From assembly GCF_000003605.2 (NCBI RefSeq), contig NW_003123911.1, forward strand, positions 213,085 to 246,477: DNA of 33,393 bases. The letters run 5' to 3'. The position numbers were made by a program, and so were the translations under genes. The notes below the pieces were generated by a model that was not told the origin of the DNA, did no database searches, and saw only the letters and a program-made list of their open reading frames with translations. This document shows positions 3,446 through 33,393 of this stretch, piece by piece. This DNA comes from Saccoglossus kowalevskii. Taxonomy: Eukaryota; Hemichordata; Enteropneusta; Harrimaniidae. The number at the start of each line of letters is the position of its first letter. Position 1 is the stretch's first letter.

Positions 3446-3684
3446 CGTGATATTCTGATTCACGTGAAATTCCGTCTGATTCACGTGATGTTCTGTCTGA
3501 TTCACGTGATGTTCTGTCTGATTCACGTGATATTCTGTCTGATTCACGTAATATTCTGTATGATTCACGTGATATTCTGTCTGATTCACGTGATAATCTG
3601 TCTGATTCACGTGATATTCTGTCTGATTCACGTGATATTCTGATTCACGTGATATTCTGTATCATTCTCGCGATACTCTGTCTA
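3446..3684. repeat. 21-bp tandem array, each unit with an E-box
   Basis: About eleven units of GATTCACGTGATATTCTGTCT, with small variants and one shortened 16-base unit. Nine units keep the palindrome TCACGTGA. Degenerate units flank both sides. The reverse strand gives an open frame repeating NQTEYHV, an effect of the 21-base period. Confidence 0.93.
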
Positions 3685-3988
3685 ATTACGTCAGCAACTT
3701 GTAGGCTTTCAAAGATGCTTCATGATTGGCCACGATCTCCTCGATCCTCCCCATAGGTCTTTGCGCTCTACGCAATTGTACCTCTGTCATAGGCAGCCCC
3801 CAATTTTATGATCAATGACCTCACTACGCACGGCTATTTTTCAGCAGTTGTTTTGCCTGAAAACGTACTACAAAACGTAAAATAAATTGTGTGTGACAAC
3901 CGAACTATTTATTAATGTCTAGCTTTTCTTGAAATGTAAATACAAACAATTTTATTGGGGACGAGGCAACGGACGGAGTTCGGACTGG

Positions 3989-13929: not shown

Positions 13930-14400
13930 TTTGTCTATTGAGTTCGATTTCTTGAAAGTTATGGTATAGGAGTTCTGTTTTTAATGTAATAAGCAAATAT
14001 TAGTGCGGCCATGCGTATTTTGTATTGAGTCCGATTTCTCGAAAGTTGTGGTATACAAGCTGACTCTGTTCTTTTTGTCTTAAGCAACATGAGTTTGGTC
14101 ACGCGTGTTTTGTGTCGAGTCCGATTTATCAAAAGTTATGGTATACTAGCTGACTCTGTTCTTTTTGTCTTAAGCAACTGAGTTTGGTCACGCGTGTTTT
14201 GTGTCGAGTCCGATTTCTCAAAAGTTATGGTATATGATATATGTCGCTGCTCTTAATGTCATAAGCAAACATTAGTTTGGTGAAGGCGTGTTGTCTATGG
14301 AGTCCGATTTCTTGAAAGTTATTGTATTCTAGTTGTCCCTGTTCTTACCGCCACAAACACAGATACATTAGTGGGATCGACGCGTGTTGACGGCGTAGCT
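13930..14400. repeat. Tandem array of about 90-bp units
   Basis: The phrase AGT(C/T)CGATTT followed by CTCGAAAGTTATGGTAT recurs at 13941, 14028, 14118, 14207 and 14301, at spacings of 87, 90, 89 and 94 bases. Units also share TTAAGCAA and GGTCACGCGTGTTTTG. The two middle units are nearly identical, the outer ones more diverged. No reading frame runs through. Confidence 0.9.
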
Positions 14401-19852: not shown

Positions 19853-21084
19853 CAAAGTCAATGAGAAAAAGTCGTTAATTTCTGGTATGAATTAGATAAA
19901 TAATTACAATTACAATAGTATACTGAAAATAAAATACACAATCATGGATCATTAAACGAAAATCGCATAGCGAAAATCCAAACCAACTTACATAAGCCAA
20001 ATATTACAAAACATGAGGGTGATTAAGCTGGTGTTTTATAATGAGTGTGCACATTCTGTTTCACATGTGAGCTGACTTTGAAACATGTATAAAGGCGCAT
20101 CTAACAGATAGATAAAGATGGTTACCCGTAGGCTTTTTCTCTGTTTGGTTTCTCAATTAACGTACGGTGTTGACAGCATCCTGTAAACGGTATATCAATC
20201 AAATCACGTCGTAATCTACTCGTATATATGGATCGTTGTCACGTTTCTACTGTGTCTCAGCTTCAAGCTGACAAATACTAAGGGTGTCTTATGATTAGTA
20301 TTCATGCTGTTTAATAAAATGTATTGAATGATGGGAAAGCATGTTTTAACCACAATAACATTCACCCATTGCAAGATATATTGCATATCGAGGGCACAGG
20401 CTGACCATGGAATACATACCATGTCCCAAGGACAACCGATGGTGGATGCCATCAATGGGAGTGGCGTTTATATTCGTAAGATATTTACCAGCTGTCAGTA
20501 AAGTACAAGTTTTTGAGATGAGAAAGCAGCAAGCGGAATTTGTCTAACGCAGTATCTTATCATTGAAATTAACTTCTGATTATTACAATGCCAATATTCG
20601 TTAATTGTGAAATAAATTAAAAACAAAGTTATTCAACTTTTTAAAGGTTTAAACTTCTACTAAACAATAGATTCATGAAAATATAACATTTGTCCTGTAG
20701 TAGTGGCTTTCAGGATAGAGCATCATTAATTGTTACAACTGTTAAATAAGATATATTCTGGCACTCGTCCTCCTCTTAAAATATATTGTATGAAGTACCC
20801 CCACGATAACATTGATGAGTTGTTAAGTACATTGACCTGTTACCTAATCAAACGGCAATATACCAAATGCACATGTGATAAGTCATTGCTCGTAATATTG
20901 TGACGCTTGGCTTGGGGGATCTTTTATCGATCAATAAAAATGGTTAAATGCAAATATCATTACAATTACATTATGTTCTTTGTCACAGAATGTTCTCATC
21001 AGCATAGCGTTTTCTTACTGTAATACATTAGTTAACCAAACTCAAGTAGCGACAGACAGTTTGCCAAGTTATACTATAAAATGA
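19853..21084. other. Gene-free AT-rich stretch
   Basis: I see no repeat, RNA gene or coding region here. Confidence 0.55.
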
Positions 21085-21531
21085 ATTTTCACTGGGTTTA
21101 AATTTCACTGATTTAGCATTTCAGGCATATTCAGTGGGTTTTAAATTCACAATTTTATCATTTAGATAATGTGTTCTATGCTCAATTTTACATATTCACT
21201 GGGTTTTAATTAAAACCCAGTGAATAATAAACGCAATTACAGTATTCTCAAAAAAGTTGATCCTCAAACAACAGATCTAAATTAATTAAATGACCTATTG
21301 TCAGGTTATCTCATTACAAATCAGGGAAGGTAACTAATTTTGCAAATTCTCCTAATAACAATGGATTAATAACTACGATTTCCATTTAGAGAGCTCCCCC
21401 ACATACATCACATAGAATCCATTTTATCATTTAGATAATGTGTTCTATGTTCAATTTCATATATTCACTGGGTTTTAATTTAGCACATTTTCCAGTCAGC
21501 GAAATAAGCAAAATTAAAACCCAGTGAATAA
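21085..21531. repeat. Cluster of inverted repeats with a CACTGGGTTTTAAT core
   Basis: The core phrase occurs on the plus strand near 21089, 21128 (as CAGTGGG), 21195 and 21464, and in reverse complement at 21210-21224 and 21512-21528. The pair at 21193-21226 forms a perfect 34-bp palindrome. The pair at 21462-21481 and 21512-21530 encloses a spacer of about 30 bases. A direct repeat of about 60 bases (ATTTTATCATTTAGATAATG and onward) occurs at 21157 and 21421. This looks like two or three partial copies of one hairpin-ended MITE. Confidence 0.8.
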
Positions 21532-22418
21532 TTAACCTTTTTACAGTAGTTTTACCAATTAAGCAAGCATATTGACAGATTTGAAAGACTCTGTTACTGT
21601 AACCATGTGCTTATGAGTGTATAGCTTCCTTTATTTTGGCATCGACAGTCTTGTCAACTATTTTGATTTCAAAGCTTTATTTTACAAAGAAAATACATTC
21701 TTTAAACAGTGGTCAAAATTAACAACCCATATTGCTGCGTTAACTACATTTGCATATTTACATGTATTTTAAATAATTAATAAATCACACAGTCAAGTAT
21801 AATTTTAGAACATCGTCACAGTCTATTGGTATTGAGACAGGGGTTTTTTCACTGCTAGAAGTGGGTAGACAAGACAACTTGAATAGTACTGGACATGAAA
21901 TAGACATACACCAAAATACCAAGTTAAAGCACCTGGCTTTAATACCACTCAAAATAATTAGATGTTAGGATGACTTTAGTTGTTTACCAATCGATTACAT
22001 TTTACTTTACGTCAACAAAAAACTTCACTATGCGGATATAAAAACGTACAAAATATTCTGGTGAAAATGCAAAAAAAAAAGAAAAAAACATTTGAAAGGA
22101 AAAAAAATTATGCAAAATCGCTGTGACTGATTTGTTTATGTCTTATTCCACATTTAAAAAAAATGTGATATCGCTTTTAATTTCTTCAAAGTACTCATTT
22201 GAAAATTCAATATAAGATTTATTTACTTAGCAGTCACATGGGCACTTGAAGATTGCATCCAATGTAACATCTATTTTTAATTAGTTTTAATTATAAGCTT
22301 TAATAAAATATATAATTTGTCATGGTTTAAAATAATTAGCGTAAATTTTACTTTTTGAAAACCCCATACTAAATCATTGAGTTTGTAAAGTGTATGGTTT
22401 CGTAAATACGTTGAAATA
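21532..22418. other. Gene-free stretch upstream of the MITE pair
   Basis: AT-rich, with A-tracts near 22070-22110. The missing 5' exon of the downstream gene could lie here or further upstream, but none is evident. Confidence 0.5.
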
Positions 22419-22655
22419 CACGCCCTCTAGCGATTAATCGCCTACGTGACGTCAACATGACGTTGATTGGTGAAACTAGCGTCGTTCACATCAGCAACTC
22501 CATGTGGCTGTGCAGTCGTACGTCATTTCGAATACAGTGAATCTCTCAAAACATGAGTGTTATTGACGGATGGTCACAGATCAAAATAATAACGACGTTC
22601 CGAACACCCTTCATCCATTTACGTCACAGAAGCAGTTTACCACCAGAGGGCGCGA
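22419..22655. mobile_element. MITE-like element, family B copy 1
   Basis: The left end CACGCCCTCTAGCGATTAAT...GTGACGTCAA and the right end TTACGTCACAG...ACCAGAGGGCGCGAC form an imperfect inverted repeat of about 35 bases. The right half resembles 30250-30310 (ACGTCACAG, GGGCGCGACTT, then A-rich). It carries a CRE-like TGACGTCA in its left arm. It is non-coding and lies directly beside family A copy 2. Confidence 0.6.
22447..22470 (+). promoter_or_regulatory. CRE-like TGACGTCA and inverted CCAAT box upstream of the gene
   Basis: TGACGTCA (22447-22454) is followed by ATTGG (22466-22470), about 410 bases before the first visible exon. Both lie in the left arm of a family B MITE. A promoter role is an inference from position; the true transcription start is unknown. 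Confidence 0.35.
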
Positions 22656-22699
22656 CTTATTGGAAAAGTGTATTCATTTGACCATCATTGACAATATTC

Positions 22700-22822
22700 C
22701 TTCACACATGGCGCAAGCGTTTGCATACACACGCAATAACGCAAAGGCTCATGGGTAGACACTTGTTTGTAAACAACGACACGCTATGACTGTATGCGCT
22801 GGCGCAGGTGATGACTCCCTTG
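22700..22822. mobile_element. MITE-like element, family A copy 2
   Basis: The core shared with the copy at 815-946 is GCAAAGGCTCATGGGTAGAC, then TTGTTTGTAAACAACGACAC. The ends are more degraded but still inverted (TTCACACATGGCGCAAGCG against CGCTGGCGCAGGTGATGA). It ends about 55 bases before the first visible exon of the cupredoxin/EGF gene. Confidence 0.6.
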
Positions 22823-22877
22823 TTTAGGTAATTACTATTTTTTAATATTACGACTGCTTTTTTGATATCATTCACAG

Positions 22878-23158
22878 GTAAACCGTACAACGGAGAACAC
22901 ATTGGCGGTGTTTGTGTTAATACTCATTAACATGTCGTTAACATGGACGTCACTGATGACGTGTAACCTTGAAAGTTGCCCGGATGACCTGGACTGTTGG
23001 AATTCGACTACGGGAGATATTCGCATTGGATGGGGTTATAGAGACTTCGGTGTGTGTCTGTCATCCAAAAGTTGTTTCGGTGAAAGTAATTTATCCGATG
23101 AAGACGATATAGACTTTTCATTACAGTTGAAGCCAATCACGATTCAAAGGGGAGACAG
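22878..23158 (+). CDS. Exon 1 (first visible): signal-like segment and start of the cupredoxin-like domain
   Basis: The reading frame is open from about 22866 to a stop just past the donor. An acceptor (TTCACAG before 22878) precedes it, and a donor GTAAAT follows 23158 in phase 2. The hydrophobic run AVFVLILI lies upstream of the first ATG (22932), so this ATG alone gives only a weak signal peptide. I infer an upstream exon joined in phase 0 that supplies the initiator. The mature part begins near TCNLESCPDDLDCW. Several cysteines and an NST sequon follow, and the exon ends in TIQRGDR, a strand that begins the cupredoxin core. The closest upstream ATGs I tried (22786 and 22808) do not connect cleanly in frame. 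Confidence 0.72.
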
Positions 23159-26100
23159 GTAAATATTTTGGTTATTTCTTTTTTTAACTATTTGGACGCC
23201 GTAATTTTTCACGCCAAAATATTGATGTAATATTTTTACGTAATTTTCTAAAATTCCCTTGTTAATTTTGGGTGAAATTAAAAAAAATAAAGGCTAATTT
23301 CTTGAAAGGCGCTCAAAAGACTTTAAATACGGTGGTTGTTAGATGGTGCACGTTGAAATGAAAACTGCACGTTGTATCATACACTATGAACACTGATAAA
23401 AACAATGTTTTGCCGTCCACACGAAGTATTTGTTCGAGGGAATAATGAACTTTGACAGAACGAAAATTACTGGTACATACTTTTAATTTGAAGTATATGC
23501 ACATTTGACAATTTCATTATTTTAAAGGAATGTCATTCTGCGCGCCACAACAGCGAGATAGTCAGTTTACTATGAATTTTATATCTATCCAAATGTACAA
23601 AAACATTAAAAAGTACTCAAATTGCCTCAAATAAACCTGTGTTAAAACCATTAACAAATTGGGATTCTCACTGTACTGTAACAAACATGTGTCAGCTATG
23701 GAGCTGTTCCAAGACTAAAGATATGGGACTGGCTTACATTTTGTAACCAAATTGGCCATCCACGAGTGTGACTACGATGACTATAGCAGTCATTCAACAC
23801 ACCAATGTGTAATTAATGGAGAATATAGAAATCACCAAAAAACGAAATTCGGTAATGTATACTGAATTTTGCATTTTTCGTAGAGTTCGTAGATTTGTAT
23901 CCAAAATGTGGACTGAATATTTTTGAAACAGTTCCGGTCAGAGTCGGTGGGCATTTCATCCCTTGGCATCTTCATCAACAAATCCCCGCATCACTTTAAA
24001 GTAGCTTTAGTGGTCTCAGTATCTGGGCGAATCCCGTAGATATAATTGACGAGTCTCCGTTCAGGTTTAGATAAATTATTTACCGTTGGTCATACATATA
24101 CCATTGATAAATCATCGAAAAATATACTATAATAGTAAAATGTTTGTTATAGAGGCATTTACAGATGTTATTCCCCGGGCGGTCACGTGAAAATAAAACG
24201 CAAATTCCTCCAATATGATCGTTTTATAGAAGCGATTGCGTAAAATAGGTTAGCTTTGTACAATGCGACTCTGTATTATATAGTGATTTAAAACATACGA
24301 AACGATTGACAAAGATTTGTTTTCCGTAATATATAAGTTATGTTTTTGTTTGCTCGCTAATATTTCTCTATATTTGTGTGTAGGTTGATATTTTACGCTA
24401 TAGAAGACGATTTTTTATTGGACCCTGTGCTGGTGTCCTACGATGCATTCCAAGAGTGTAGGCCAATCGGAGTGTCTCTTTCAAACAATATTTCTAAAAA
24501 CGGTATTTACATTGACTCGATGTCCCTACTCCCTGGAGTGAACTACATCATTCATAAACGTCGTGACAATGACCTTTACGCGTGTGACTTTGGCCTGAAG
24601 TTGAAGGTATTCGTCAAATATAACCATTGTCGCCGCCGAGCAAACGCGGAGGACGAACTGCAATGTAATGGACATGGGCACTGTGCGTCTTCTAAGGACG
24701 AGATTTACAACACTTGCCATTGTTGCCATGGCTACACTGGAATATTTTGCGAAGCAGTCGTCATAGACTGTAACGACAACCCATGCCAAAATGGCGGATT
24801 CTGTCAGAACAAGTTTTATGGGAATGACAAATGCATTTGCAGCGAAGACTACACAGGGCCATTTTGTGAAACTATGGTTTCCTTGACAACGGAAAGTGCG
24901 TTGGGAACCACTACATTGGTGGATTTAAATGTGATTGGTGTCAATGCTACATCACGATTTCATACAACGACGTCATTACCTAATGATCTCATGGATTTAC
25001 ACTGGGTACAGATACAGTTGTTTATTCCAAGTTTAATATGTCAGTTATGGCAGGTAATTATCTTGTTACTAGTATTGCATTTTTTTGGAGCTACTCTCAT
25101 GTCCCGTTAGCCAGACGTGATTCCAAAAAAGCGCGTTTTACTCTTTTCGAAAAAAAAATACCTTTGTATTATAAGAGTTGAGTATGGATGACTTTGGTCA
25201 TAACGCTCTCAGTAGCAATTTGGTACGTTGAAACAGAGGGACTGTGGTTGAAAGCAAACACAACATTGTCAACAAACAAGGTCTGCTAGGTGGAAGGCTT
25301 TGCCCAATCAGGCATTGACACCTAGGCAGCGCGCAGGACCGATCGCACCATACGACATTTCGCTCGTACAGGTTCAGTCTCCAAACAACTTTTTCATAAA
25401 ACCGTCCAACTAATCACTGGTCCCACCAACGCACAATCACCGTCAACTCTTTACTTACACAGTAGACATACTTCCATGTACTATGTATGTATTAATGAAT
25501 AAGCTACGTCTTTTAGAAAATTAATGTGCACTCGGTTATTGTGCGAATACTTTAGTAAGTCGGACAATACAATTAAATTACAACACGGATTTAATAAATC
25601 TGATATTGTTGGGTCACCAGTGTGACATCCTGTTTGTCTCATTTATCCGTGTCACAGATTTCAAACACAAACAACGAACACGGGAGCCGTTAAAGTTGAA
25701 CGGACCATCTAATTTGCATAAATCGCTGTTCTACGAACGCCAAATACCGGCTGCCAATCTCATACGTTTGAACAATCCGAGATACCAATATATTTACGAT
25801 TTGAGGAGCAAATTGGTAACATGACCACTAATTTTAGAGTAAATTAATCCGTAGCCGCTAGATGCAAGGGAAATAAAATGCAGTTGAAGTTATTAGAAAC
25901 GAGTCTCCGCTCATACGTAACATTAAATCACACACACTTGATTCCCGGAATCTAAAACTACTAGAAATATTAAAATTACTAAAATTTCTAATAATGTTAT
26001 TTGTAATGTAAACCAAAAACTGATTGAGATGTTGGCGTACTTAAACGAAATACTAGCTATGTTGTTACACTTTCAACCTGCTAGCCTGGACCAATCAGTT

Positions 26101-29100
26101 CACTGGGAATGATTGTATAACATGGAGTATGGAGACTCGAAAATTAAAACCGTTATGGCGCTTCGTCACTTGGAATTGCTGTGGTATGTGAGCTGAATAC
26201 ATATAATCAAATTTGCAATCTGTTCACGAAACAAAGTGATAATTTATTGTCAGACAACTGCCGAATCAAAACGCTCTTTACAATATACAATGTATATTCA
26301 GTCACGTGATGGACCTTCCAAATAAAACAAGAATTACGACTATAATATTACTATTATTAATACATGTAATACCACTTTGAAATTGTGAAAACAGTTGTAT
26401 TTCATGAACAAAAAAGTGCGTACTGGTCTCCACTAGGTGAAGATTTTATATAACTTCAAAATAAAACGTATAACAACCATTCAAAACTAGAACTTTTAAC
26501 CACACAAAGGGTTTTCTCCATATACATTACATTTCATCTACATTATGAAAACATTTGAAAAACACTCAGAACGGCGGTTTTTCGCATTTCTTGTATTTTA
26601 CACGCGTTGAGCACGTCGCATGGGACCCATATTGAGCACGTGTACGACGCGCGCGATACGACGACCTGAACACTTTAATATTAAACACGTGTGTCTTTAT
26701 TTCCAACAGAGTAACGCGACAGTAAAGGACGAAGTGTACCGGTATGCATACACACTGGTTAGAGACAAGTTGATACCTTCGGCAGTTAGATATTGTACGG
26801 TCGGCGGTGCCAATTTTGGGATAAGTAGCCTGTATGACGTCATTTCCTGTCTCAATGACGGCACGGTATTGAGGTGAGAAATGTTATGCAATTGCAGTAT
26901 TGATAAGAACATGGACGTTTGTTCGTATTTGCCAGAAGTTGACTTTACCGACTAACAACAGAGAAAATGGATGTTGGTCTATCTTTTCAATAGACTAAGA
27001 TTGATAATAAATAGCGTAACTTGCTTTCCTTAATTATAATTATATTTACTTTAATTTGAAAGTTAAATACTGGTGCAACGTCTGGAGTAATGTATTAAAA
27101 CCCAATTTGCATGCATATCCGTCAAAGCGGTGCTGAAAATGTTATTTGTGGCGGAGATGCTACAACGCCCCCAACTTCTGCATTTTGATGATAAGTTGGC
27201 CACCTGTCATGTGATGAACATTTTATTGCGTTTTGAGCTTTGAATAATACCAAAAAAATATTTCATTTGAATGTTTTTTTTTAGATTACGACTAGCATCG
27301 TCGAAGTCTTCATCAGTTTCAACATCCGAGTTACTTTGCATAATGTTATACTACATGAGAAACACGTCACTATCATTAGAAATATACAACGCGAGTCACG
27401 TGGTATCTGACAGCTTCCCACTGCCAGTGTACTCTGTCGATGGGTCTAATTGTTGGAATGAAGATACCATAGCAGCACTTTGTAACCAAACCAATAATGG
27501 AACCTTAGGTGTGATACATTACATTGTCATAGGGTGGTGTATTTGCGACGTTCATAGTAACCCGGCAATAAGGTGTACACAACAGTATACACAGTATTAC
27601 GACAAACTTACTCCGCCTCGCAAAAAAAATCACGGGCTTAACTCATTTAACTTCGCCAAGTCAACCCGGAGTCAAGAAGGGCTCCAAAAAACGCCCTCAC
27701 GTTTTGTTGAATGTTGATTTACACTCTTTTTATCTTGAAATTATACGATGCGCCGCCGCATTACTGGGAATACATGGCCAGTATAAGTCTCAATATGACC
27801 GAAACAAACAGGGAGTAATTATAATATGGTTACTACTAATATCCTCGTATTGTTGATATACTGTGTGTATATCAATTATTTGGTAATCTGTGCTGATATT
27901 GTCAGATCCAATGTAACACGCTTCGTTTCTTTTACTGTTTCACAGACTTGGCAACATTGGCGCCCTCAACGACGAAACACCTTTTACCGATAAAACCTGT
28001 GTGGAAATCTGTAGAGCATCCAGCCAAGAACATTTTGATCGCATCCATTCCAGTCTGTTCACTTCTTTTATTACTGTTCATTGCCATGGCAATATGCATT
28101 TATTTATACAAACGAAAATACACAAAAAGTTACACGTGAGTATATATTATTATCGATGTCACTGATCTTTTCGAGTATTTGGTGTTGGGTTTTTGGTTTC
28201 AATGTAAATCAGTGTATTTATGAATAATAGGTTACTGAAATATATGCGATAATTAATGTAATTTTGATCAATTTTATGTTTTGCCAATTAAGTGTGTACT
28301 AGTACCAAAACAAACAAAATAACAACAAGGCCACAAAACGAAACACAATACAACACGACACAACACGATGCGACACGACACGACACATCACAACACAAAG
28401 CAACGCAACACACAATGCAACACAACCCAATAAAACACAACGCAACGCAACACAACGAAACGCAATACAACACAACGCAACGCAACGTCACACAACGCAA
28501 CACAACCACAACGCAACGCAACACAACACAACGCAATGCAACGCAACGCAACCCAATAAAACACAACGCAACGCAACACAACGAAACGGAATACAACACA
28601 ACGCAACGTCACACAACGCAACGCAACACAACGCAACGCAATACAACACAACGCAACACAACACAGCACAACACAACACGACACAACGCAACGCGACACA
28701 ACGCAACGCAACACAACGCAACGTAACACAACACAATGCAACGCAACACAACGCAACACAACGCAACACAATGCAACACAACGCAACGCAACGCAACACA
28801 ACGCAACACAACGCAACGCAATACAACACAACGCAACCACAACGCAACGCAACACAACGCAATGCAACGCAACGCAACACAACGCAACGCAACACAACGC
28901 AATACAACACAACACAACGCAATGCAACGCAACGCAACATAACGCAACACAACGCAACGCAATAACAACGCAACGAAAAGCAACGCAATACAACACAGCG
29001 CAACGCAACACAACGCAAAGCAACGCATCGCTGTACAATACAACCACAAACTGTATAGAAGAACGTGCGACTTTGAAAGGCAAACTTCGAAGGAAACCAA

Positions 29101-29692
29101 AGTTAGATTCTCTTTTCTACAGTCTACGATGAAATCCAACACTACATAATAAAATACAACAGAACTAAACGCAACAAAACAGAACACAGAAAAACAAAAT
29201 AAAATAATATTCAATGTTTTCATTCTCTTCAAAAGGTTCAAAGAAAGTATTCGGTTGGCTAAGCTCAAAGACAAATCGGGAGAAAACAACGTGCGAACAA
29301 CTGACGTAAAAGTGCCAGCAAATCGATGGTGGATAGCCTATAGCCGTGCGTCTTCAGCGGAATCCCCAAACAACGGCATTGCTTCGGAACCACGGCAAAG
29401 TGTGAACGGTTGTCCCATTCTCATTCAGGAAGGGGAAAGCGATATCACCGAATACAAACCAACAACTTCGTCCAGATCTCGGACAGCAACCATTAATTCA
29501 AATGATACAGATCTGAATCAAATGAGCGCAGACTCTGATATGACGTGTCCAGGAACGCCCAGCGGCAGCGTTGATGACACGGTGAAAATTATTAACGTCA
29601 AACCCGTTACTGGCGAGGATAGTGTTCATATTTATGACAACCTCTCTTTTATGGAGGAGGAAAATGACATTGAAGATATTCTTAGTTTGTAA
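22878..29692 (+). CDS. Cupredoxin-like/EGF single-pass membrane protein, six visible exons
   Basis: Joined exons 22878-23158, 24384-25053, 26710-26873, 27285-27508, 27946-28135 and 29236-29692 keep one frame through five GT/AG introns (phases 2,0,2,1,2). Numbering from the first visible codon (661 residues): hydrophobic signal-like stretch 9-18; cupredoxin-like domain about 29-175; EGF-like 1 about 176-217; EGF-like 2 about 223-256; S/T-rich linker; an unrecognised region about 300-447 with several cysteines and N-glycosylation sequons; transmembrane helix 475-501 followed by KRK stop-transfer; cytoplasmic tail 502-661. The layout predicts a type I plasma-membrane receptor or ligand. EGF pairs usually mediate extracellular protein contacts; no enzyme motif is seen. 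The first ATG in exon 1 (22932) would leave a poor signal peptide, so the true start is probably in an unseen upstream exon. The exon 4 donor is the least certain junction. I do not recognise a named orthologue. Confidence 0.82.
23159..24383 (+). other. Intron 1 (phase 2)
   Basis: GTAAAT to TGTGTAG, 1225 bases, AT-rich. It contains a TCACGTGA E-box at 24183-24190. No coding stretch or clear mobile element was recognised inside it. Confidence 0.75.
24384..25053 (+). CDS. Exon 2: cupredoxin-like core, two EGF-like domains, S/T linker
   Basis: The acceptor TGTGTAG and donor CAG|GTAATT bound 670 bases that enter in phase 2 and leave in phase 0. The first part reads like phytocyanins and ephrins: GDRLIFYA across the junction, then YDAFQEC, then SMSLLPGVNYIIH, then ACDFGLKLKVFV. 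The Cys pair in YDAFQEC and ACDFG matches the structural disulfide of phytocyanins. The positions that usually bind copper (His in HNV, Cys in YFIC, His in HC) are not copper ligands here. EGF-like 1 (24628-24753) carries an extra cysteine in CHCCHGYTG. EGF-like 2 (24769-24870) has the canonical six cysteines and CQNGGFC, and lacks a clear calcium-binding N-terminal motif. The end is S/T-rich with NAT and then more hydrophobic. Confidence 0.88.
25054..26709 (+). other. Intron 2 (phase 0)
   Basis: GTAATT to CCAACAG, 1656 bases. The reading frame of exon 2 stays open for 18 more codons and is hydrophobic (see findings). It contains a dispersed 18-mer at about 25234-25253, a TCACGTGA at 26302-26309 and a decayed inverted-repeat element at 26569-26677. 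A 72-codon open stretch at 25606-25824 has no ATG at its start and no recognisable domain. Confidence 0.75.
26569..26677. mobile_element. Family C MITE copy 4, decayed, next to exon 3
   Basis: TTTTACACGCGTTGAGCACG, GGGACCCATATTGAGCACG and ACGACGACC...CTTTAA match the right two thirds of the 10386 copy. The left arm is only a trace (ACGGCGGTTTTTCGC). It ends about 32 bases before the exon 3 acceptor. Confidence 0.6.
26710..26873 (+). CDS. Exon 3: extracellular juxtamembrane region, part 1
   Basis: This 164-base exon follows TTTATTTCCAACAG and ends AG|GTGAGA, entering in phase 0 and leaving in phase 2, which matches both neighbours. It begins SNATVKDEVYRYAYTLVRD and ends NDGTVLR, with two cysteines and an NAT sequon. 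No domain family is recognised. The alternation of likely helix and strand could fit a small SEA-like module, but I see no cleavage motif, so this is a guess. A decayed CpG-rich inverted-repeat element ends about 32 bases upstream of the acceptor. Confidence 0.75.
26874..27284 (+). other. Intron 3 (phase 2)
   Basis: GTGAGA to a T-tract ending TTTAG, 411 bases. Nothing else was recognised in it. Confidence 0.7.
27285..27508 (+). CDS. Exon 4: extracellular juxtamembrane region, part 2 (3' end uncertain)
   Basis: The acceptor is a T-rich tract ending TTTAG before 27285, phase 2. The chosen donor TTAG|GTGTGA at 27509 leaves phase 1, the only phase that fits the transmembrane frame of exon 5. The peptide includes LLCIMLYYMRNTSLSLEIYN, then SNCWNEDTIAALC, with sequons NTS, NAS, NQT and NGT. 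The frame stays open past this donor to a stop at 27715-27717. A second donor-like site (AAG|GTGTAC near 27570) is in the wrong phase for exon 5. An unseen small exon between 4 and 5 cannot be excluded. Confidence 0.65.
27509..27945 (+). other. Intron 4 (phase 1, donor uncertain)
   Basis: GTGTGA to GTTTCACAG, 437 bases. The exon 4 frame continues open to 27717. A small hairpin with arms TTGATATAC and GTATATCAA lies near 27855-27877. Confidence 0.6.
27946..28135 (+). CDS. Exon 5: transmembrane helix
   Basis: The acceptor GTTTCACAG before 27946 (phase 1) and the strong donor GTGAGT at 28136 (phase 2) bound 190 bases. The peptide has a threonine/proline-rich lead (LAPSTTKHLLPIKP), then a long hydrophobic segment at about 28029-28110 (IASIPVCSLLLLLFIAMAIC), then YLYKRKYTK as a basic stop-transfer. 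This gives a type I orientation with the EGF domains outside. One alternative frame of the exon is also open but has no membrane segment. Confidence 0.82.
28136..29235 (+). other. Intron 5 (phase 2), mostly satellite
   Basis: GTGAGT to TTCAAAAG, 1100 bases. About two thirds of it is the pentamer satellite described separately. Confidence 0.78.
28305..29030 (+). repeat. (RCAAC)n pentanucleotide satellite in intron 5
   Basis: About 0.7 kb built of 5-base steps alternating ACAAC and GCAAC, with variants such as ATAC, CGAAAC and CGTCAC. The plus strand is almost free of T. A higher-order unit shows: the phrase ACCCAATAAAACACAACG occurs at 28425 and again at 28551, 126 bases apart, with matching sequence after it. 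Edges fade into A/C-rich sequence at about 28290 and again at 29140-29210. Open frames through it on both strands are artefacts of the repeat. Confidence 0.95.
29236..29692 (+). CDS. Exon 6: cytoplasmic tail and stop codon
   Basis: The acceptor CTTCAAAAG before 29236 completes a threonine codon with exon 5 (phase 2). The tail is polar and Ser/Thr-rich, with a basic start (FKESIRLAKLKDKSG), NRWWIAY, and an acidic end EEENDIEDILSL. YDNL near residue 643 fits the pYxN pattern that Grb2-type SH2 domains bind. DIEDIL loosely resembles an acidic dileucine sorting signal. The terminal LSL fits the loose class II PDZ pattern. These short motifs are suggestive only. The TAA stop is at 29690-29692. Confidence 0.85.
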
Positions 29693-32656: not shown

Positions 32657-33156
32657 ATATTGAGCAGAATCATGATATTGTCATTTTAATATAATCTGTC
32701 AAATTAAAAAAAAACGCATTCAATTAATTCTTGTATATATTCGTAACCTCCGAGTAATCGGTAGAGAGTTAGTTAAGAACTGATCGTGAGAACGATATTC
32801 CAGTGAATTGCTTGTGTAGTTGTCATACTCCACTTTCATATTTAGGTACAACAATAGTGGTGCGTTCATTGGGTGCCTCAAATCTTACGTAACTATTGTT
32901 CAAATAATATTTGTGAGTTTCAAGCATGAAAAGCTTTGTTCAACACTGTTATCAATTATATACTTTTTTTGACATGGAAAGACAACCATGCTTTATTGTA
33001 CTTAGATATATGTCCATTCTTAGAATACCACTTCAAAAAAGACTATTATTAATACTTAATTAATTTTTTGGTTGTATTGAGTCAAGTGACATGGGGTCAT
33101 AGACATTCGATTGAACACTCAATATTTTTTATACGATATTTACAAAAAACAGCAAC
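32657..33156. other. Gene-free stretch before the 39-bp array
   Basis: AT-rich, nothing recognised. Confidence 0.55.
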
Positions 33157-33393
33157 ACAATTTCTAGTTTTAACTGTTAAAATACAGAACATAACACTTT
33201 TTCTAGTTTTATCTGTTAAAATTCAAAACATAACACAATTTCTAGTTTTATCTGTTAAAATTCAAAACATAACACAATTTCTAGTTTTATCTGTTAAAAT
33301 TCAAAACATAACAAAATTTCTAGTTTTATCTGTTAAAATACAAAACATAACACAATTTCTAGTTTATCTGTTAAAATTCAAAACATAACACAA
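33157..33393. repeat. 39-bp tandem array, runs to the window edge
   Basis: Six units starting TTTCTAGTTTTATCTG at 33161, 33200, 33239, 33278, 33317 and 33356. The last is one base shorter. Because 39 is divisible by three, a plus-strand frame repeats FLVLSVKIQNITQ; this is most likely incidental. The array may continue beyond the window. Confidence 0.93.

Follow-up and report, generated by a model that had tools for sequence, protein, structure and literature searches.

Phytocyanins bind copper, and the early nodulin-like phytocyanins, which represent the copper-less type, are above all others the closest kind to the protein considered here. Within the ephrins, a YYKV-type C-terminus is a feature of ephrin-B. 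In two articles, ephrins are regarded as descendants of a cupredoxin whose copper was lost (PMC6485061, PMC6993872). Other copper-less cupredoxin domains of animals are described, in a third article, in mollusc haemocyanin and in ascidian Tuphoxin (PMC9395347).

The gene analysed in this work lies in a stretch of DNA of 33,393 nucleotides, referred to as the window, which occupies a contig end (C1652:213085-246477) in a genome assembly of 572 Mb and 4830 contigs. The preferred reading, to which a probability of about 0.55 is assigned, is that the product of the gene is a surface protein of type I that crosses the membrane once and has a copper-less phytocyanin-like recognition head, an EGF stalk and a tail. 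The outermost domain (about residues 29-176, referred to as the head) would adopt a phytocyanin-type cupredoxin fold, that is, a disulfide-braced beta-sandwich, and would offer a protein-binding face in the manner of the ephrin head. A folded membrane-proximal region, together with the two EGF modules, would keep the head off the membrane, while the 160-residue tail would pass on or organise the contact and might bring in proteins of trafficking or signalling. The head is thus presumed to serve in recognition, and the tail presumably in signalling.

The order of head, two EGF modules, transmembrane helix and tail was not found in the literature searched, in which subscription journals are thinly covered (including PMC6485061, PMC4890752, PMC6993872 and PMC9395347). 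A wider proposition, made tentatively and with the odds somewhat against it, is that of an undescribed animal membrane recognition family represented at least twice in this genome. Its copper-less phytocyanin-type head would have been combined with EGF modules in an event separate from the origin of ephrins, so that the cupredoxin fold would have been taken up a second time as a surface binding module. If this is true, contact at the cell surface has drawn on the cupredoxin fold repeatedly, and the protein would be a new orphan ligand or receptor. It may represent a new class of ligand or receptor.

Gene model and exon structure

Six exons join into one frame of 661 residues, which is open at the 5' end, includes the stop and contains no internal stop. 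All exon joins are of the GT-AG type, with phases 2,0,2,1,2, and the + strand is used throughout. The exons, and the two EGF-like modules encoded within exon 2, are listed below together with the evidence used for each.

22878..23158, + strand: exon 1, hydrophobic stretch of signal type plus the N-terminal portion of the putative cupredoxin-like domain (acceptor TTCACAG, donor GTAAAT; codon score)
24384..25053, + strand: exon 2, remainder of the putative cupredoxin-like domain, EGF 1, EGF 2, Thr/Ser-rich linker and start of the membrane-proximal region (open frame, codon score)
24628..24753, + strand: EGF-like module 1, residues 176-217 (cysteine spacing; one extra cysteine, 208)
24769..24870, + strand: EGF-like module 2, residues 223-256 (Pfam EGF PF00008; Notch EGFs in PDB)
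26710..26873, + strand: exon 3, membrane-proximal region part 1 (splice borders, phase, coding score)
27285..27508, + strand: exon 4, membrane-proximal region part 2 (splice borders, coding score; donor 6/9)
27946..28135, + strand: exon 5, stalk and transmembrane helix (hydropathy)
29236..29692, + strand: exon 6, cytoplasmic tail, stop included (splice borders, coding score)

Judged from its DNA, the gene is real at these coordinates. Codon usage was scored leave-one-out, each exon with the usage learned from the remaining exons and with intron trinucleotides as the background, and this places the read frame at the top of the six frames in 5/6 exons; the exception is the exon of the transmembrane helix, exon 5. 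The donors of exons 1-5 match the consensus at 8/9, 8/9, 7/9, 6/9 and 8/9 positions, the poorest match being that of the exon 4 donor. The order of parts given in the original prediction (signal, head, two EGFs, unrecognised region, transmembrane helix, tail) is right. The signal itself stands in part: a signal-like hydrophobic stretch, LAVFVLILINMSLTW, is present at about residues 9-23 by hydropathy, but the start codon was not found. The ATG at 22932 falls within the hydrophobic stretch, and positions 21001-22860 hold no convincing upstream start exon, the best phase-0 donors after upstream ATGs reaching only 6/9 of the consensus.

These features bear on the reading that the model fuses parts of two genes, one contributing the head and EGF exons and the other the transmembrane and tail exons. 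The exon joins were read from DNA alone, neither exon 1 nor 21001-22860 yielded a convincing start codon, and the exon 4 donor is weak, all of which leaves room for such a fusion. However, the phases all fit on a single strand, and downstream of the ectodomain exon with the EGFs come a transmembrane exon and a stop. Furthermore, when the window's own genome was queried with the membrane-proximal, transmembrane and tail part, five places matched, which were exons of this gene without exception, and there was no counterpart elsewhere. A fusion of two genes is consequently regarded as unlikely.

Elsewhere in the window, ten open reading frames checked as neighbouring genes gave no convincing Pfam match, and Rfam and tRNA scans of the window found nothing. 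Intron 5 contains about 127 copies of a CAACG-type pentamer at 28391-29031. Tandem arrays with units of 21, 90 and 39 bases occupy 3454-3691, 13936-14346 and 33146-33393, respectively, the last of them at the window's end.

EGF modules, membrane-proximal region and tail

The two EGF-like domains of the original prediction are borne out, on different grounds for each. Module 2 is narrowly above the cut-off of Pfam EGF (PF00008), with 22.0 vs 21.5 bits. Module 1 is below every Pfam cut-off and is recognised by its six-cysteine spacing and by sub-threshold matches, among them one to EGF_Teneurin at residues 187-217. In the PDB, the best matches of the EGF pair are Notch EGFs (best E 3.4e-19), and in this respect the pair resembles Notch-type EGF repeats. 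Unlike Notch, the window gene has two EGF modules only, and Pfam recognises no other Notch parts in it.

The transmembrane helix and tail that had been predicted are likewise present. A single strongly hydrophobic helix lies at about residues 476-501 (28032-28109), with hydropathy up to 2.77 over 19 residues, and is followed by the tail of 160 residues. The tail contains five tyrosines and one YDNL motif, at residue 643, and its C-terminus is EDILSL.

In the PDB, antibody chains were all that the membrane-proximal region matched, with no E value below 0.13. By eye, residues 296-430 (24988-27459, spliced) show an SEA-like spacing, with SLYDVISCLNDGTVLRLRLAS and VVSDSFPLP set against MUC1. The alignment of this region to the MUC1 SEA domain is weak (304, 78 and 46 of 2000 shuffles as good under three scorings), and in this weak alignment a G-T falls where MUC1 has its G-S cleavage site. 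Pfam does not support an SEA domain (PF01390): it gave no match in the region, while the control, the MUC1 SEA domain, scored 47 bits, and the SEA-like look is at most a lead.

A second gene with the same head

The animal genome searched for the head was the window's own. There, the head matches one further place, C760:68930-69358 on the - strand, at E 9.7e-6 and with 32% identity over residues 5-148 of 148; the second copy is placed at C760:68930-69367. The reverse search, with the second copy as the query, recovered the window gene via exon 2 and at E 0.418 only. The second copy and two EGF modules share one open frame of 264 residues; two downstream exons, which show phase-1 borders in the DNA, add 1 and 4 EGF modules, giving at least seven in three exons. 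The gene lies at 6724-9975 of C760:59501-69500 on the - strand and is followed by N for at least 16,650 bases, and the rest of it falls in this run of N. In the genome search with exon 2, 150 of 303 candidates were scored. A third copy of the head was found neither among 6 extra loci listed by this search (tblastn, best 25 rows) nor among 30 loci located by pattern, where the matches were EGF modules. In prokaryote and viral collections no relatives were confirmed, and phages yielded none.

The second gene thus resembles the window gene in carrying the same head domain directly before EGF modules, and differs from it in having the head and the first two EGFs in one exon and at least seven EGFs rather than two. 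Since this layout recurs in the same genome, the order of head then EGF is not unique to the window gene, and the two genes may therefore form a small, undescribed family of recognition proteins.

The head, phytocyanins and ephrins

A phytocyanin- or cupredoxin-like head is supported by the sequence comparisons, with moderate strength and short of proof. A significant match to Pfam Cu_bind_like or Ephrin had been proposed as the check, and it failed. Cu_bind_like (PF02298) matched neither residues 29-176 nor residues 85-174 at E up to 10, while the controls matched their own families (cucumber basic protein, 2CBP, 96.7 bits; umecyanin, 1X9R, 93.3 bits; ephrin-B2, 180.1 bits). The second copy gave no cupredoxin or ephrin match in Pfam either. 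A Cu_bind_like search of the window's own genome gave no match, but its 14 controls gave none there either, which makes it uninformative. Against the PDB, single-sequence searches with either copy of the head found no cupredoxin, and a profile built from both copies, with E values up to 10 admitted, found none either.

Direct comparison was made with a reference set of five solved, aligned plant phytocyanins. A model of the five scored the head at 2.8-4.9 bits in hmmsearch, with 41, 12 and 8 of 3000 shuffles as good at three gap settings; two further gap settings gave no score, and in an earlier run 77/5000 shuffles were as good. The single head sequence aligned by hhalign gave P 0.023 (5/200 shuffles as good). 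In pairwise alignment the best template was umecyanin, matched over its whole 80-residue length and equalled by 9, 0 and 4 of 2000 shuffles under three scorings; the other four templates were equalled by 56 to 1685 of 2000. The score summed over the five templates was reached by 10/3000 full and 6/3000 local shuffles and by 0/824 translated stretches from elsewhere in the window. The highest single-template score is less striking (36/3000 full shuffles, 29/3000 local shuffles, 14/824 window stretches).

When the second copy was added, the two-copy profile aligned by hhalign with the five phytocyanins at a probability of 23% and P 8.9e-4 over 76 columns, with the whole core in order. The score of 25.7 was reached by 0/600 column shuffles, of which the best scored 22.9, and the reversed alignment scored 13.9. 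The second copy alone was not significant (112/2000 shuffles as good). In the two-copy alignment, the cysteines of the phytocyanin disulfide C52-C85 are aligned with C119 and C161 of the head.

A competing interpretation is that the head is another lineage-specific, beta-rich cysteine domain, with the phytocyanin resemblance arising by chance or convergence. This would fit the lack of a match in the profile library and in the PDB, as well as the ordinary level of most pairwise scores to single phytocyanins. AlphaFold2 predictions, made for exon-2 fragments only (24385-24873 and 24385-24630, without exon 1 and without relatives), reached pLDDT 35.4 and 39.0 and are unusable, which also leaves room for such a domain. 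However, the second copy strengthens the profile comparison, the whole core is in order, the disulfide is in register, and none of the 600 column shuffles is as good. The lineage-specific domain is for this reason considered the less probable of the two, though it deserves serious weight. As for the cupredoxin-like domain of the original prediction, the moderate alignment statistics and the disulfide cysteines in register speak for it, but the expected Pfam match is missing.

If the phytocyanin-like fold is correct, the likeness would reside in the order of the core motifs, GD-x-L-x-F, F-x-x-C, P-G-x-x-Y and C-x-x-G-x-K-x-x-V, and in the position of the disulfide cysteines, both shared with 2CBP, 1X9R and other phytocyanins. 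The differences are longer loops, extra N-terminal cysteines, the missing Pfam match and the loss of the copper ligands; moreover, unlike in phytocyanins, the head precedes EGF modules and a transmembrane helix. In the two-copy profile alignment, the ligands H39, C79, H84 and M89 correspond to L106, H151, A160 and L165 of the window head, and in the second copy Ala and Arg replace C79 and H84. Copper has thus probably been lost, and a head from which the ligands are absent would be unable to act as an electron carrier. The opposite reading, that the stalk carries a functional copper protein for electron transfer or copper handling at the membrane, could draw on the copper binding general in the phytocyanin family, on H151 at the place of C79, and on a histidine of the second copy one column from H39. 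However, the window gene retains 0/4 copper ligands, and two of them are Ala and Arg in the second copy, which makes this reading highly improbable.

By analogy, the copper-less head may work like an ephrin head. The two would share a copper-less cupredoxin fold on a tailed cell-surface protein, which for the window gene is a working model; the window protein, unlike ephrins, has no Ephrin profile match, carries EGF modules and lacks a YYKV-type C-terminus. A stronger version of this relation is that the head is a diverged ephrin, so that the protein would be an ephrin made unusual by its EGF modules and would bind Eph receptors. In its favour, PMC6485061 describes ephrins as membrane proteins bearing a cupredoxin fold without copper. 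Nevertheless, Pfam Ephrin (PF00812) does not match the head though it matches ephrin-B2, and the head aligns to ephrin-B2 no better than shuffles do (1444, 1595 and 916 of 2000 as good under three scorings). This last result is weak evidence because 3/5 ephrin-phytocyanin pairs of the same fold show little signal too. Membership of the ephrins therefore fails the profile test, the pairwise alignment being uninformative.

The genome also contains two other Ephrin matches, both on contig C2740, at 74214-74510 (+) and 85339-85638 (-), with scores of 88.9 and 79.8 bits. Neither is this gene, in a search that went exon by exon, with the window head split over two exons. Taken with the profile result, they render a diverged ephrin quite improbable, and the copper-less phytocyanin-like head remains the preferred reading. 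The two Ephrin matches on C2740 are about 11 kb apart and in opposite orientation.
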